This document shows, piece by piece, positions 6,863 to 30,898 of a stretch of DNA of 42,403 bases. The stretch covers positions 1-42,403 of the forward strand of contig JAAYPS010000187.1 of NCBI GenBank assembly GCA_012519655.1. Direction: 5' to 3'. This DNA is from Clostridiaceae bacterium. Lineage in GTDB: Bacteria; Bacillota; Clostridia; DSM-8532. The translations under genes were made by a program, and so were the position numbers. Under the pieces are notes generated by a model. That model had not been told where the DNA came from. It made no database searches and worked only from the letters and a program-made list of their open reading frames with translations. Position 1 is the stretch's first letter, and every line of letters starts with the position of its first letter.

Positions 6863-7134
6863 TTTATTCAATAGTTCCATATCAGCAAATCTTATATAAT
6901 GAAGAAAACAAGCAAGAACGAATGGAGATGAGTATTAACGGAGAACAAGTTATTCTTCTGAAAAATGATAATAACACATATACAATTGAAAGACTACTCT
7001 CAACTAATCCAAAGTCATATTTGATCCCTGAGCTTATGCCAGGAACAGTGATTATGACCATTACAGCAAAAAAGGAGACACCAGAAGTGACATGGGAGAT
7101 ATTGAACAAGGGATTTCATATAAACAAAAACTAA
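6859..7134 (+). CDS. YlzJ-like protein
   Basis: Small soluble protein of 91 residues resembling the YlzJ-like family, whose function is unknown. It starts [13 protein letters not shown] and carries the typical core [20 protein letters not shown]. Family members are usually about 70 residues; this one has a longer C-terminus that overlaps the next gene by 43 nt in another frame. The ATGA overlap with tepA and the conserved tepA-ylzJ pairing in Firmicutes support it being a real gene. No metal or catalytic motif is visible. Confidence 0.75.
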
Positions 7135-7472
7135 AATTTGCTTTAGCTGGTTTTCTTGCAGGCTTAGTAAACGGCTTACTTGGTTCTGGGGGTGGGATAC
7201 TAATAGTTTTGTATCTAACAATAATAGCCAAAGAAGAAAGGAAGAAGGCACAAGCTACTGCCATAGCTATTATCCTCCCATTAACTATACTAAGCAGCGT
7301 CATTTATTTTAAGAGTGGATTTGTGGATTGGTCCTTGTTATGGAAGGTTTCTGTAGGAGGAGTTGCAGGAGCTATTCTAGGTGCTGTTCTATTAAACAAA
7401 TTGAGACCTAAACTTATTAAGAAGTTATTTGGAGTTTTTCTCGTTATTGCAGGTATTAGAATGCTTCTGTGA
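7092..7472 (+). CDS. Half-size TauE/SafE family membrane protein (first of pair)
   Basis: A 126-residue hydrophobic protein with four predicted membrane segments. The family motif GLVNGLLGSGGGILIV lies near residue 23, and a typical repeat end, GVFLVIAGIRMLL, closes the protein. Full TauE/SafE permeases are about 250 residues and eight helices built from two such repeats. Together with the next gene this gives one full transporter in two pieces, perhaps a heterodimer. The family exports sulfite, sulfoacetate or other organic anions; the substrate here is unknown. AAAGGAG at 7071-7077 is rather far (14 nt) from ATG 7092, and the start lies inside the ylzJ-like gene, suggesting coupled translation. 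Confidence 0.8.
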   Translation: MGDIEQGISYKQKLKFALAGFLAGLVNGLLGSGGGILIVLYLTIIAKEERKKAQATAIAIILPLTILSSVIYFKSGFVDWSLLWKVSVGGVAGAILGAVLLNKLRPKLIKKLFGVFLVIAGIRMLL

Positions 7473-7544: not shown

Positions 7545-7910
7545 ATGCTTGAAATTATTATTGGTTTTATATCAGGGACAGTGAGTGGTATGGGTATGGG
7601 TGGTGGTACATTGCTAATACCAGCTTTAGTAATATTAATGGAGATTGAGCAAAAAACTGCACAAGGTATCAATTTGCTGTATTTTCTGCCTTCATCTATT
7701 TCAGCGTTAATTATACATATAAAGAATAAACATATTAAAACAAATTTACTTACTGTTTTAATAGGCGCAGGATTGTTAGGCGCATTTTTGGGTTCATTTT
7801 TAGCCGTTAAAATTTCTAACGATTTACTGAAAAGGATATTTGCTATTTTTTTAACCATCATGGGTATATATGAGATATTTTGTAAGGAAAAAACCCAAAA
7901 GGATGTTTAA
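7545..7910 (+). CDS. Half-size TauE/SafE family membrane protein (second of pair)
   Basis: A 121-residue protein with about four membrane segments. It opens with the family motif FISGTVSGMGMGGGTLLIP and ends with a repeat-like IFAIFLTIMGIYEIF. AGAAGGAG lies 8-9 nt upstream of ATG 7545. It is 72 bp behind the first half-size protein and in the same orientation. The two are different in sequence, as the two halves of a single TauE are, rather than recent duplicates. Whether they pair with each other or form homodimers cannot be told from sequence. No binding partner or regulator is adjacent. Confidence 0.8.
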   Translation: MLEIIIGFISGTVSGMGMGGGTLLIPALVILMEIEQKTAQGINLLYFLPSSISALIIHIKNKHIKTNLLTVLIGAGLLGAFLGSFLAVKISNDLLKRIFAIFLTIMGIYEIFCKEKTQKDV

Positions 7911-7992
7911 AAGATATCTACTGCTAGTTTTAAAGAATATCCGAATAACTACTGGAATAATAAAGTTTGTCAAAATTTTAACACAGAAATGC

Positions 7993-8020
7993 TTGACTTT
8001 TAGTATTATAGTAATATAAT
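7993..8020 (+). promoter_or_regulatory. Sigma-A promoter for the glycine riboswitch-serA transcript
   Basis: TTGACT at 7993-7998, a 16-nt spacer and TATAAT at 8015-8020, placed about 45 nt before the first aptamer. The 80 bp between the previous stop codon and this promoter show nothing else. Confidence 0.75.
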
Positions 8021-8061
8021 AAAAACAATAACTTAGTGAAAAACTGAATAAAGCTGAATGA

Positions 8062-8207
8062 TGATTAAAGGAGAGAGGCTGTAAAGCACACCGAAGGAGT
8101 AAATCTCTCAGGTAAAAAGACTTTAATCGGACGGACCTCTGGAGAGACCAGTATGGCGCCGAAGGGGCAAACCCATCAGGGTGTATCTCTCAGGCAAAAG
8201 GACAGAG
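8062..8207 (+). ncRNA. Tandem glycine riboswitch (two aptamers)
   Basis: Two glycine aptamers joined by a short linker. Aptamer 1 is closed by a perfect 8-bp P1, GATTAAAG (8063-8070) with CTTTAATC (8121-8128). It contains the hallmark GGAGAG, a P3a arm and CTCTCAGG followed by the A-rich core. Aptamer 2 repeats the pattern: GGAGAGACC at about 8141, GGCGCCGAAGGGGC, then CTCTCAGGCAAAAGGACAG ending near 8205. Both ligand-binding cores look intact. The usual target is the glycine cleavage operon; here the next gene is serA. Confidence 0.95.
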
Positions 8208-8214
8208 TATATAA

Positions 8215-8295
8215 GGATTTTAGCACATTGCTGAAATCCCATATTCTTATATAATAATTTCAGTGGTCAAACAATTGGTTTGACTTATTTTTTTA
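8215..8295 (+). promoter_or_regulatory. Expression platform of the glycine riboswitch: alternative hairpins and terminator
   Basis: Three hairpins can form. A: 11 bp with a CAU loop (8215-8225 with 8229-8239). B: CTGAAAT (8231-8237) with ATTTCAG (8257-8263), which shares bases with A, so A and B exclude each other. C: GTCAAAC (8266-8272) with GTTTGAC (8278-8284), followed by TTATTTTTTT, a weak terminator ending at the serA ribosome site. This is a transcription-attenuation layout, but which state is ON with glycine cannot be decided by eye. Confidence 0.65.
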
Positions 8296-8307
8296 GGAGG
8301 GGTAATT

Positions 8308-9912
8308 TTGGCAAAGATTATTGTGACTGATAAAATGGCACCGGAAGGAATAGAGTATCTTAAAAGTAAAGGCTTCGAAGTTGATACACCATTTGGTATT
8401 TCTCATGAAGAGTTGCTCGAAGTAATAGAGGAATATGACGCTATTATAGTTCGAAGCGCAACAAAGGTAAGAAAAGACGTTATTGAGCGCGCTAAGAAGT
8501 TAAAGGTAGCTGGTAGAGCAGGAAATGGTATTGATAATATCGACGTGGAAGAATGTACTAAGAGGGGTATAGCTGTTGTAAATACACCTGAAGGCAATAT
8601 TATGGCAGCAGCCGAAATGGGCGTTGCAATGGCTTTTTCAATATTTAGAAATATTCCTCAAGCCCATTATGCAGCTAAGAATAAGGACTTTAGAAGAAAT
8701 CAATTCATAGGTGAAGAATTAGATGGTAAAGTAGCTGGAATTATCGGTCTAGGAAGGATTGGATCCATTGTTGCAAAAAAACTCCTTGGAGTAGGAATGA
8801 AGGTTGTTGGATATGATCCTTATGCTTCTGATGATAAATTTGCACAGTTAAGAATTAGTCGTTGCGAATCCTTAGAGGATTTATTGAAAGTGTCAGATCT
8901 AATAACATTGCATATACCAAAAAGCCCTCAAAACACAGGTTTGATTGGAGAAAAAGAACTAAAAATATGCAAAAAGGGTGTCCGTATCGTAAATGTGGCC
9001 AGAGGCGGAATGATCGATGAGAAAGCCTTATATGACGCAATTGTTAGTGGACAAGTTGCAGCAGCAGCCCTTGATGTTCAGGAAGTAGAACCTAACTTTA
9101 CCAAGAAACCTGAAGAACAGGATTACTGGAACCCACTACTTGATCTAGACAATGTTGTGTTTACTCCACACCTTGGGGCTTCCACAAAAGAGGCAAATTA
9201 CAACGTTAGTATAGGTGTTGCAAAATTAGTTGAAGGTGTCTTAAATAACGAGCTTGTACCTGCTGTAAATATGCCATCTGTTTCGGGCGACTTAACTCAG
9301 TTAAAACCATATATTGATTTAGCTGAGAAATTGGCAAGCATATACTATCAATCAGAAAAAGACAGAGTGACAAAGATTGAAGTAATATACAGCGGTGATG
9401 TTGCTCAAATGGAGACCAGGCCAATAACACTTTCTGCGATAAAGGGATTCCTAAATAGCGTTGGAGATTACGATGTCAATTATATAAATGCAGAGCTAAA
9501 GCTTAAAGAACTTGGAGTCAAATTGACAGAAAGTAAGAGCTCACATCTTGAAAAGTATGCTAACCTTATTACAGTTAAGTTTACAACAGCCAATAAATCA
9601 CAATCTGTATCAGGAACTGTATTTGCACAAGATGTGATTAGAATAGTTGACTTCTTCGGTTATAAGCTGGATTTTGAGCCCACACCACATGTAATTGCTC
9701 TTCAAAACATTGACGTTCCTGGTATTATCGGTAAAGTTGGAACATTGTTGGGTATGAATGGTATCAATATTGCTGCAATGCAATGGAGCCGCAACAGAAG
9801 GGGCGAGAAAGCAGTATCCTTCGTAAGTGTGGACGCAGATATTTCAAATAACATACTTGAAGAATTGTTAAAAATAGAAGGAATTTTAAAAGCATCAAGA
9901 CTACACCTATAA
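8308..9912 (+). CDS. serA: D-3-phosphoglycerate dehydrogenase
   Basis: Catalyses the first step of the phosphorylated serine pathway, 3-phosphoglycerate plus NAD+ to 3-phosphohydroxypyruvate. It has 534 residues, the long form. Substrate domain 1-100; Rossmann fold with GLGRIG at 148-153; ARGGMIDEKAL with R232; PHLGAST with catalytic H288; an intervening domain at about 320-450; and a C-terminal ACT domain (about 463-534, starting HVIALQNIDVPGIIGKVG) for amino-acid feedback. A small insertion (EPNFTKKPEEQDYWNP) follows the catalytic ALDV strand. TTG 8308 has AGGAGGGG 6 nt upstream. serC is not adjacent. Expression is likely controlled by the preceding glycine riboswitch. Confidence 0.95.
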   Translation: MAKIIVTDKMAPEGIEYLKSKGFEVDTPFGISHEELLEVIEEYDAIIVRSATKVRKDVIERAKKLKVAGRAGNGIDNIDVEECTKRGIAVVNTPEGNIMAAAEMGVAMAFSIFRNIPQAHYAAKNKDFRRNQFIGEELDGKVAGIIGLGRIGSIVAKKLLGVGMKVVGYDPYASDDKFAQLRISRCESLEDLLKVSDLITLHIPKSPQNTGLIGEKELKICKKGVRIVNVARGGMIDEKALYDAIVSGQVAAAALDVQEVEPNFTKKPEEQDYWNPLLDLDNVVFTPHLGASTKEANYNVSIGVAKLVEGVLNNELVPAVNMPSVSGDLTQLKPYIDLAEKLASIYYQSEKDRVTKIEVIYSGDVAQMETRPITLSAIKGFLNSVGDYDVNYINAELKLKELGVKLTESKSSHLEKYANLITVKFTTANKSQSVSGTVFAQDVIRIVDFFGYKLDFEPTPHVIALQNIDVPGIIGKVGTLLGMNGINIAAMQWSRNRRGEKAVSFVSVDADISNNILEELLKIEGILKASRLHL

Positions 9913-20723: not shown

Positions 20724-21557
20724 TTACATTTCTGTATGATTACCACCGCTGGCATATACTATTGCTGCACCAAGTGCAGTTGCATATTCGGAATGTTCTG
20801 GAATGTGAAACTTTACAGAATGTATTTTAGTTAAGCCGTCGAAAATCTTCCGGGACTGTGGAACTTTTGTAAGGTTCCCTGTTAGAACAATGTCATCAGT
20901 GCCGTCTATTCGCGCTGCGAAAACCGACAAAACACCAATAGTCTGAAACACTAAATTGATAATTCCGAGAGCAACATCTGTTTTTGTTGCCAGGTCGCTA
21001 ATCTTACCGAAGTTAGAAGCTGTCGAATCGGCAGGGAGTCCAACTATTTCATCGTTAGTAATATCATTAATAAATAAATCAACATTTGATAGATCTCCGT
21101 CTTGTGCCATGCCAATGAGATCTTCAAATTCGCGCACATTAAGTATTTTATTAGATAGCCCTAGTAAAGTACCACCGCCAACACCACTTCCTCCTAGGTG
21201 TCTTGCCTTCCCTTCTTCAGCTTTTACAAATGCTGTGCCCGTTCCCATACTTACAATAACTGCATTGGAAAGATTTGAAAGGAAAAGACCACCCATGCCC
21301 GTGGCAAGGAATTCTTGTGTTTTGCCGGTTGGTAGGCCAAAAATGCGTTTTTTTACGTATGATGAGCCTACGCCTGTTACCATAACATAAGAAATATCCG
21401 ATAATTGCAATTTGTTTTCATTAAGAAATTTACCAAATGCTCCATATAATGATGAAATCGGGTCAGTGGCTCGTACAAGCATTGGGTTTATTACTTCATT
21501 GTTTAAAAAACCAGTTATTTTTGTTGTAGTGCCACCAATATCAATACCAAGAATCAT
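20724..21557 (-). CDS. coaW: Type II pantothenate kinase
   Basis: Phosphorylates pantothenate, the first step of coenzyme A synthesis. 277 residues in the acetate-kinase/hexokinase (ASKHA) fold: phosphate-1 loop GIDIGGTTTKI at the N-terminus, VSMGTGTAFV near 100, GGSGVGGGTLLGL near 120, and LTGNLTK with a closing ATALGAAIVYASGG. This matches the CoaW group rather than CoaA or CoaX. ATG 21557 follows AAAAGGAG by 9 nt; an upstream frame extension adds 19 unlikely residues. The neighbouring ECF-type membrane protein on the same strand suggests uptake followed by trapping of pantothenate. Confidence 0.88.
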   Translation of the reverse strand: MILGIDIGGTTTKITGFLNNEVINPMLVRATDPISSLYGAFGKFLNENKLQLSDISYVMVTGVGSSYVKKRIFGLPTGKTQEFLATGMGGLFLSNLSNAVIVSMGTGTAFVKAEEGKARHLGGSGVGGGTLLGLSNKILNVREFEDLIGMAQDGDLSNVDLFINDITNDEIVGLPADSTASNFGKISDLATKTDVALGIINLVFQTIGVLSVFAARIDGTDDIVLTGNLTKVPQSRKIFDGLTKIHSVKFHIPEHSEYATALGAAIVYASGGNHTEM

Positions 21558-21716
21558 TGTGTTTACACTCCTTTTATCTGTTAGCTTATAAGTAAAACTT
21601 ATATAATCAAACACTACTTCATATTGAACTGTTTAGTTTATCTTGTGTGTAGTGGGGTGATTAACTCACATTATAATAGAAAACTATACATTGTATATTA
21701 TGATATTTTTCGATAA

Positions 21717-22331
21717 TTAATTGCGTATTTTACGGACTGCAAGCACGATTGGAATACACAACAAAATAGAGGCAACAATCTCTGCAATATAATTAGGGAC
21801 AGCAGACAAAAAAATGTATGCAGGGGAAGTTGTTTCGGGTAATCCGAGTAAAGTTATTAATGCACTGATATATTTTTTAGCATAGATAATGTAAATGGTA
21901 CCTAGAACCCCCAAAGTGTTGGTTGTTGTAGCCAAAACAGCTGATGTGCCAATTGATATTGCATCACGTTTTTTGCCCATAACTTTGCTTAGCCAATAGT
22001 AAACATAATAAGCAACTATACCGATAAGAATTCTTGGTAAAACTGAAACCAACGGGTTACGAAAAGCAAAGGCTGTTGGCATCGGTGATGTAAAGGCAGT
22101 ATAAAAGCTTGAAAGACCGAAGACAAGACCAATAAATGCCCCAGCCGCAGGCCCTTCTAGTATAGCGCCAATTATTACAGGTATGTGCATAAGAGTCACT
22201 TGAATGGATAGACCTGGGATCATAATAAAGCCTAACGTTGTAAAATTTAGAACAATTGACAGTGCGGACAGGATACCAGTAACGGCAATCTTCCTGACGT
22301 TGAATTTTGATTTAACATTCTCACTATTCAT
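21717..22331 (-). CDS. ECF transporter substrate-binding (S) component, probably for pantothenate
   Basis: 204-residue membrane protein with about six hydrophobic segments. The N-terminal KIAVTGILSALSIVL is the typical S-component start that contacts the shared T component, and GPAAGAFIGLVFGLSSF is a typical glycine-rich second section. The energising EcfA/EcfT subunits are not nearby, so it would use a shared module. Substrate assignment rests on the adjacent coaW and resemblance to the PanT-like group; other vitamins are possible. GGAGG lies 8 nt before ATG 22331. The 159-bp gap to coaW holds A/T-rich sequence and possible promoter elements (TATAAT on this strand) that I cannot assign firmly. 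Confidence 0.72.
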   Translation of the reverse strand: MNSENVKSKFNVRKIAVTGILSALSIVLNFTTLGFIMIPGLSIQVTLMHIPVIIGAILEGPAAGAFIGLVFGLSSFYTAFTSPMPTAFAFRNPLVSVLPRILIGIVAYYVYYWLSKVMGKKRDAISIGTSAVLATTTNTLGVLGTIYIIYAKKYISALITLLGLPETTSPAYIFLSAVPNYIAEIVASILLCIPIVLAVRKIRN

Positions 22332-22470
22332 TTGAATCCTCCGTTCTCATTCCAAAATGGATATAAGTCGAAATTAGAATGATACATAATAAATTTTGTC
22401 CAGTTTCTAATAAGAATACCGGCATTTTTATAATAGTACCATTATCTGCTTTTTATTTCAATAATTAATT

Positions 22471-29976: not shown

Positions 29977-30747
29977 TTAATATACATAAACCATTTTGCC
30001 AGATCTAAGTGCAAGAGGTTTTGACCATAGCCATTTGTTTGTTGCGCTATCATCAAAAAAGTATAATGCACCTTTTGTAGGATCTGCACCATTAAGCGCT
30101 TCATAAGCTGCTTTTGTTGCTTCAGACGATGCTTTTTTGTTTATCATCCCATTTTCTACAGGAGTAAATTGGTAATATCCGTATGATTTCTCATAAATTA
30201 CTCCACTAATACTATTAGGAAAGCGAGAATCCTTTACACGGTTTACAACAACGGCTCCAACTGCTACCTTAGCTGTATATGGTTGGTTTTCTGCTTCTGC
30301 TGTTATAAGCCTTGCAAGAAGGTCAAGGTCACTTTGGGTATAGGGTATTACAGCTTTACTGGTGATAGTGGTATTTGTAGAAGCTGTATTACCAAAGGAT
30401 TTAGGGATTATAAGACTCTGACCTGTATAAATCATATCATCCCATTTACCATTTGCTTTTCTTAGGGAGTTAAGTGAAATACCGAATTTTTTTGAAATGA
30501 GGTATAAGCTATCACCTCTTTGTACAGTATATACATCTGCGTTAATGTTAAGTTTCTGTCCTGGATAGATCATTGTATTATTTAAACCATTCTGATTCAT
30601 TATTGCACTTGCAGATGTACCGAAAAGTTGTCCTATATTGTAAAGAGAATCACCCTTAACAACGGTATATGATGCTGCATTGGCAAAGTTCGGTATCAAT
30701 GATGATAATGCTACTAGCGCTATGAAAAGTTTTATTTTTCTTTTCAT
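29977..30747 (-). CDS. Secreted LysM / SleB-type cell-wall hydrolase
   Basis: 256 residues. Signal peptide 1-24 (lysine-rich start, hydrophobic core, ANA cut site), two LysM peptidoglycan-binding repeats (about 26-69 and 72-115, each with GDSLY and YPGQ or YTGQ), then a hydrolase_2 (SleB/CwlJ-like) domain (about 140-256) with the likely catalytic E151 in LITAEAEN, VAVGAVVVNRV and YYQFTPVENG. SleB-type enzymes lyse spore cortex, but vegetative homologues exist. AAGGAGG lies 7 nt before ATG 30747. The leader carries a c-di-AMP riboswitch, which fits control of wall turnover. Confidence 0.93.
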   Translation of the reverse strand: MKRKIKLFIALVALSSLIPNFANAASYTVVKGDSLYNIGQLFGTSASAIMNQNGLNNTMIYPGQKLNINADVYTVQRGDSLYLISKKFGISLNSLRKANGKWDDMIYTGQSLIIPKSFGNTASTNTTITSKAVIPYTQSDLDLLARLITAEAENQPYTAKVAVGAVVVNRVKDSRFPNSISGVIYEKSYGYYQFTPVENGMINKKASSEATKAAYEALNGADPTKGALYFFDDSATNKWLWSKPLALRSGKMVYVY

Positions 30748-30759
30748 GTTTGTCCTCCT

Positions 30760-30898
30760 TTTAGCCTCCGAGGTTAGTTGACGGGTTTGGGCAAGAGGTG
30801 CCCATTTCTATAAAAAAATTCACCCCAATTAAAATATCCCCCGTATTCCTATGTGGAAATTCGGCATTTGTTTTATGCCGACCATTCTAACAGAGGGC
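30760..30898 (-). ncRNA. c-di-AMP riboswitch (ydaO/yuaA type)
   Basis: Read on the minus strand: GTCGGCATAAAACAAATGCC then GAATTTCC, a GGGGGAT section, AATTGGGGTGAA, a GGGCACC-TCTT-GCCC arm and the diagnostic 3' core CCCGTCAACTAACCTCGGAG followed by GC. These are the conserved blocks of the ydaO aptamer. The GGAGGC end is followed after four A/T bases by the AAGGAGG ribosome site, leaving no room for a separate terminator. The class is generally an OFF switch for wall hydrolase and osmolyte genes. Confidence 0.88.

Follow-up and report, generated by a model that had tools for sequence, protein, structure and literature searches.

Glycine riboswitches before serC and serA, and a predicted OFF logic, are already published. 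Sun et al. 2013 (PMC3766115) report both genes under a glycine riboswitch in one Clostridium species, a glycine riboswitch precedes serC in metagenomes (PMC2211319), and a glycine riboswitch with a T-box(Ser), or ZTP with glycine, precedes serine genes in leaders predicted to be OFF switches (PMC9481103). OFF glycine riboswitches are also described at Na+/alanine-glycine symporters of Vibrio cholerae and Streptococcus pyogenes (PMC5829553, PMC11477304), ON logic is reported for gcv genes (PMC11477304, PMC6944388), and the general OFF scheme has long been known (PMC2258182).

Here we analyze a serA leader within 42,403 nucleotides of DNA from a Clostridiaceae bacterium (contig JAAYPS010000187.1 of assembly GCA_012519655.1; hereafter, the window). 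Its aptamer class and pathway are those of the Clostridium and metagenomic cases. In the window serA alone is targeted, an arrangement kept through an order, whereas the extracts of PMC3766115 and PMC2211319 available to us give no switching mechanism. Two full aptamers, a serine-synthesis target and predicted OFF logic are shared with the T-box(Ser)-glycine leaders as the extract of PMC9481103 presents them; unlike in those leaders, neither a T-box nor a ZTP riboswitch was detected by Rfam in the window, and relative to that extract the OFF wiring is spelled out here. At the symporters glycine represses the gene, as we propose for serA, but the target is a transporter, and the extracts of PMC5829553 and PMC11477304 do not describe for the S. 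pyogenes switch the exchange of helix P1b and terminator that we report below. The generic OFF transcription riboswitch, as outlined in the extract of PMC2258182, resembles our proposal in that the ligand disrupts an antiterminator holding terminator bases; ligand and target differ. In the extracts of these open-access papers, to which the search was confined, we found no description of this P1b exchange at serA.

The serA leader and its distribution

The leader comprises the following features, all on the forward strand.

7993-8020, +: promoter-like site, TTGACT-16-TATAAT, 11 of 12 matches, about 40 bases 5' of aptamer 1
8058-8133, +: glycine aptamer 1 (RF00504, 58.6 bits, E 1e-9)
8063-8070/8121-8128, +: P1a of aptamer 1
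8134-8141, +: switch strand GACCUCUG, made up of the linker end and the P1b 5' strand (CUCUG, 8137-8141); conserved in relatives
8137-8207, +: glycine aptamer 2 (RF00504, 52.6 bits, E 4e-8), with P1b formed by 8137-8141 and 8203-8207
8215-8239, +: spacer hairpin (A of the original prediction); position common, sequence conserved in the nearest relatives only
8259-8268, +: putative antiterminator partner UUCAGUGGUC, pairing with 8134-8137 and 8139-8143; relatives' consensus CAGAGGUC
8265-8294, +: intrinsic terminator GGUCAAAC-AAUUG-GUUUGACU plus U-run, hairpin 8265-8285; relatives have conserved GUCAAAC/GUUUGRC
8295-8302, +: ribosome-binding site AGGAGGGG, immediately 3' of the U-run, read from the sequence
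8308-9912, +: serA, 3-phosphoglycerate dehydrogenase (TTG start, 534 amino acids; TIGR01327, 597 bits against a cut-off of 454)

The original prediction placed tandem glycine aptamers and a terminator in front of serA, and both elements were recovered. The two aptamers exceed the RF00504 gathering score of 32 and are the sole matches to that family in the whole genome by Rfam search, and the open reading frame behind them is SerA by TIGR01327. They are joined by a short linker and share a single expression platform, one terminator adjoining the gene. A scan of 7700-8400 returned two terminator-like sites where shuffles gave 0.4: the conserved hairpin 8265-8285 with its T-run, and the spacer hairpin. 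A transcription start 3' of the aptamers had been named as the case that would undo the prediction; the promoter-like site instead lies upstream of both, and like sites lie 5' of the aptamers in most relatives. Between that site and the start of the window, 7092-7472 and 7545-7910 (+) encode two half-size membrane proteins, TauE/SafE-like by eye, which correspond to the two halves of the model NF007909 in reversed order, the first protein to its C-terminal and the second to its N-terminal half. At two other loci (L053, L062) a gene like the NF007909-type membrane proteins also sits 5' of the riboswitch.

RF00504 was present in 42 of 61 genomes, counting the window's own and its relatives. At 31 loci, the window among them, the riboswitch is immediately followed by SerA; the downstream gene was tested by tblastn, and L053 and L062, which are cut by contig ends, were left out of this count. 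In the order examined the riboswitch directly precedes serA in 30 of 33 genomes. The other three comprise one in which the riboswitch is at a contig end (G006) and two without an RF00504 match (G011, G015); the 31st locus, L049, comes from outside this order. The order's serA group has Thermoclostridium caenicola (L077) among its named members. At further loci, including those of Ruminiclostridium papyrosolvens (L098), R. sufflavum (L106) and Anaerobacterium chartisolvens (L094), serA begins about 1.2-1.5 kb 3' of the aptamers, in a set of 80 loci of which 40 were run through Rfam. An aminotransferase gene intervenes in the Ruminiclostridium-type relatives, giving a riboswitch followed by an aminotransferase-serA operon. 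Among the loci compared, the L098 aminotransferase has homologues at L106, L116 and L031 (78-85%) and remote ones at L131 and L094 (35%). The extract of PMC9026213 describes serA in one operon with a serC-type gene. At one further serA leader (L058, genome G005) the second glycine aptamer is truncated and no terminator is recognizable; this is probably a decayed switch.

Competing partners of the P1b 5' strand

Comparison of the leaders shows that in most of them the terminator reads GUCAAAC/GUUUGRC with CAGAG(G) just 5' of it. The terminator's 5' flank, CAGAGGUC or nearly so in most leaders, complements GACCUCUG, the last linker bases together with the P1b 5' strand. CAGAG is also the sequence of the P1b 3' strand, which gives the P1b 5' strand a choice of two same-lettered partners. 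Pairing with the P1b 3' strand leaves the terminator free, whereas pairing with the terminator base hides the terminator's 5' arm, and the logic is therefore OFF. In the window an intrinsic terminator (8265-8294) precedes the gene, and the putative antiterminator overlaps P1b at 8137-8141 and the terminator at 8265-8268 and would exclude both, although the window's copy carries a mismatch.

We propose that bound glycine would lock P1b of aptamer 2 (8137-8141/8203-8207), that the terminator at 8265-8294 would then be free to form, and that transcription would end before serA. Without glycine, 8259-8268, which lies below and inside the terminator's 5' arm, would capture the P1b 5' strand and the adjoining linker; this capture would act as the antiterminator and allow serA to be read. 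The aptamers, target, promoter-like site, terminator, conserved competing complement and computed folding form the basis on which we consider it very likely that this tandem glycine riboswitch turns serA off at the level of transcription, with a predicted response to glycine. We infer that glycine binds, that P1b is stabilized in the living cell and that the kinetics permit read-through.

To compare observed with expected pairing, the 10-base switch strand was matched against the first 110 bases after P1b in 41 of 42 leaders (L058 omitted). A helix of at least 7 contiguous pairs was found in 27 of the 41, against 8.1 expected from dinucleotide shuffles, and one of at least 8 pairs in 22, against 2.9. 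In the canonical register, 195 of 216 cells paired across 27 distinct leaders without genus g7, falling to at most 107 when the strands were slid by 1-4 bases either way; with genus g7 included, the figures were 221 of 256 and at most 123. At L041 and L009 the partner has shifted register yet still pairs, over 9 and 12 contiguous pairs. The register and ensemble tests omit L058, five leaders in which the pattern found no GUCAAA-type site (L049, L091, L093, L099, L116) and L094, where the site found was spurious.

The original prediction had suggested a search for covariation in related serA leaders. The canonical register showed no two-sided covariation of the antiterminator. Changes are one-sided, and strands from the same leader pair no better than strands from different leaders (0.896 each), which implies conservation without covariation; the leaders compared are related rather than independent.

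Computed ensembles of these leaders followed the proposed exchange. In ligand-free transcripts ending just past the flank, the antiterminator exceeded 0.5 in 29 of 35 leaders and P1b did so in 2 of 35. When P1b was forced, the medians were 0.00 for the antiterminator and 0.99 for the terminator, the latter being at least 0.79 in 30 of the 35. A stepwise energy bonus on P1b raised the terminator and lowered the antiterminator in five of seven leaders (the window, L027, L020, L028 and L098); in the other two (L029, L011) even -8 kcal/mol had no effect. Pairing of the P1b 5' strand as antiterminator was absent from five leaders of genus g7 (L035, L019, L021, L024, L030), which combine the same aptamers with a different platform. 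The genus of Thermoclostridium caenicola, a cultured member of the order, has the diverged platform. In one of the five g7 leaders, L024, we noticed by eye that GUUUGAACCUGCAGGUCAAAC could form another, self-contained hairpin as a putative antiterminator.

The original prediction assigned switching to two other hairpins, A (8215-8224/8230-8239) and B (3' end at 8263), which would exclude each other and relay the state of the aptamers to the terminator. Their overlap at 8231-8237 exists as pairing potential, both can form in the window and in L027, and B could help termination by covering UUUCAG, a segment of the antiterminator partner. We nevertheless give this model very little credence. B occurs in the window's register in 2 of 35 leaders (the window and L027), and A is one of many unrelated hairpins in a variable spacer, its sequence differing between genera. 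Neither has bases in common with P1b or the terminator stem and hence neither could couple glycine binding to termination; as B does not overlap that stem, it could not directly prevent termination. A and B were rejected as the switch. The conserved alternative is the pairing of the P1b 5' strand with the terminator's 5' flank, in which they take no part beyond the masking of some of the flank by B. The further inference that feedback on serA needs an OFF switch is supported by this P1b/terminator wiring and not by the hairpins proposed for it.

The window's copy is imperfect. Its partner, CAGUGGUC, places U8138 opposite U8264, a single U-U mismatch, and the remaining pairs are GACC 8134-8137 with GGUC 8265-8268 and CUGGA 8139-8143 with UUCAG 8259-8263. 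The longest contiguous helix in the window has only 6 pairs and is at another site. Duplex energies of single leaders, compared with shuffles, mostly gave modest z-scores (-1.4 for the window, a value equaled or bettered by 7 of 100 shuffles); it is therefore the leaders taken together, and no single one, that carry the argument. In the complete window transcript the terminator is favored at equilibrium whether P1b is free (0.93) or forced (0.97), which implies that read-through in the window would depend on co-transcriptional kinetics.

The mismatch and the strong equilibrium terminator with P1b free would both fit a degraded switch, one in which termination in the window's genome occurs mostly regardless of glycine. 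We consider such decay unlikely, because in a transcript ending at 8269, once RNA polymerase has passed the flank, the antiterminator still belongs to the unforced minimum-energy fold and makes up 0.74 of the ensemble. Several relatives with a perfect complement likewise show a strong equilibrium terminator, and the promoter-like site, both aptamers and serA are all intact in the window. Given the mismatch and the dominant equilibrium terminator, the dynamic range of the predicted switch in the window is uncertain.

Opposite wiring at gcvT

Leaders of gcvT, taken from relatives, have tandem aptamers and a single platform, as the serA leader does, but differ in the strand of P1b that is used. 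At gcvT the P1b 3' strand (CAGAG or CAGGG) continues without a break into the terminator stem and forms its base; at serA the P1b 5' strand forms the predicted antiterminator. Of 14 gcvT leaders, 7 were folded with a complete terminator, and in these the downstream pairing of the P1b 3' strand dropped from 0.54-0.79 to 0.00 once P1b was forced; of the others, L057, L060 and L061 were not parsed and L007, L038, L048 and L051 end short of the terminator's end. Because forced P1b abolishes terminator pairing, the logic at gcvT is ON.

Alternatively, glycine might switch serA on, for example to move carbon by way of serine under an ample supply of glycine and one-carbon units. The extracts of PMC6944388 and PMC11477304 regard the glycine riboswitches of glycine-cleavage genes as ON switches, and in the window forcing P1b barely alters the equilibrium terminator. 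This reading is nonetheless highly unlikely, as the serA terminator, unlike that of gcvT, does not include the P1b 3' strand, and locking P1b leaves the terminator prevailing in most serA leaders. ON logic for serA was thus rejected on wiring, the gcvT-type terminator base being absent from the serA leaders.

serA catalyzes the first committed step in the synthesis of serine and, through SHMT, of glycine. Since glycine is formed from serine by SHMT, repression of serA by glycine would be ordinary end-product feedback. The window's genome has one SHMT, one serC (TIGR01364, 503 bits), one SerA plus a 37% relative, and one gcvT (L152, C123 17238-17990). We looked for a glycine riboswitch at this gcvT and detected none, whereas many relatives' gcvT genes have one, which implies that in this genome the predicted glycine control acts on serA and does not extend to the cleavage system. 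The puzzle of the original prediction, a glycine sensor before a serine gene, thus finds an answer in feedback repression, and the wiring indicates how it could work. Paired gcvT (ON) and serA (OFF) leaders in related genomes offer a natural comparison in which the sign is reversed by the expression platform alone.

A wider interpretation, which we advance tentatively and rate slightly below an even chance, is that in this order serine synthesis is gated by glycine and not by serine or tRNA-Ser. The same aptamer pair would be wired ON where the terminator borrows the P1b 3' strand and OFF where the terminator imitates that strand and competes for pairing with the 5' strand. The OFF wiring would descend from an aminotransferase-serA operon that has since lost its first gene at this locus.

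Other glycine leaders and RNA motifs

Among symporter leaders, serA-like pairing was clearly above shuffles in 2 of 9 tried (L026, L044). At L006 (G053) a glycine aptamer is followed by a terminator flank, CCGGAGGU, that could pair with the P1b 5' strand over 8 pairs, a number not above shuffles. The downstream open reading frame resembles homoserine dehydrogenase by eye; it would be unusual for threonine synthesis to be under a glycine switch.

The window contains two further RNA motifs, both on the reverse strand. A c-di-AMP riboswitch (RF00379, 82 bits; 30748-30876, -) lies directly before ORF 29977-30747 (-), an ordinary context; inspected by eye, the product combines LysM repeats with a cell-wall hydrolase domain. 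A pan motif (RF01749, 42 bits; 22338-22425, -) precedes ORF 21717-22331 (-), which by eye is like a vitamin-transporter membrane subunit and is followed by 20724-21614 (-), type II pantothenate kinase-like by eye.
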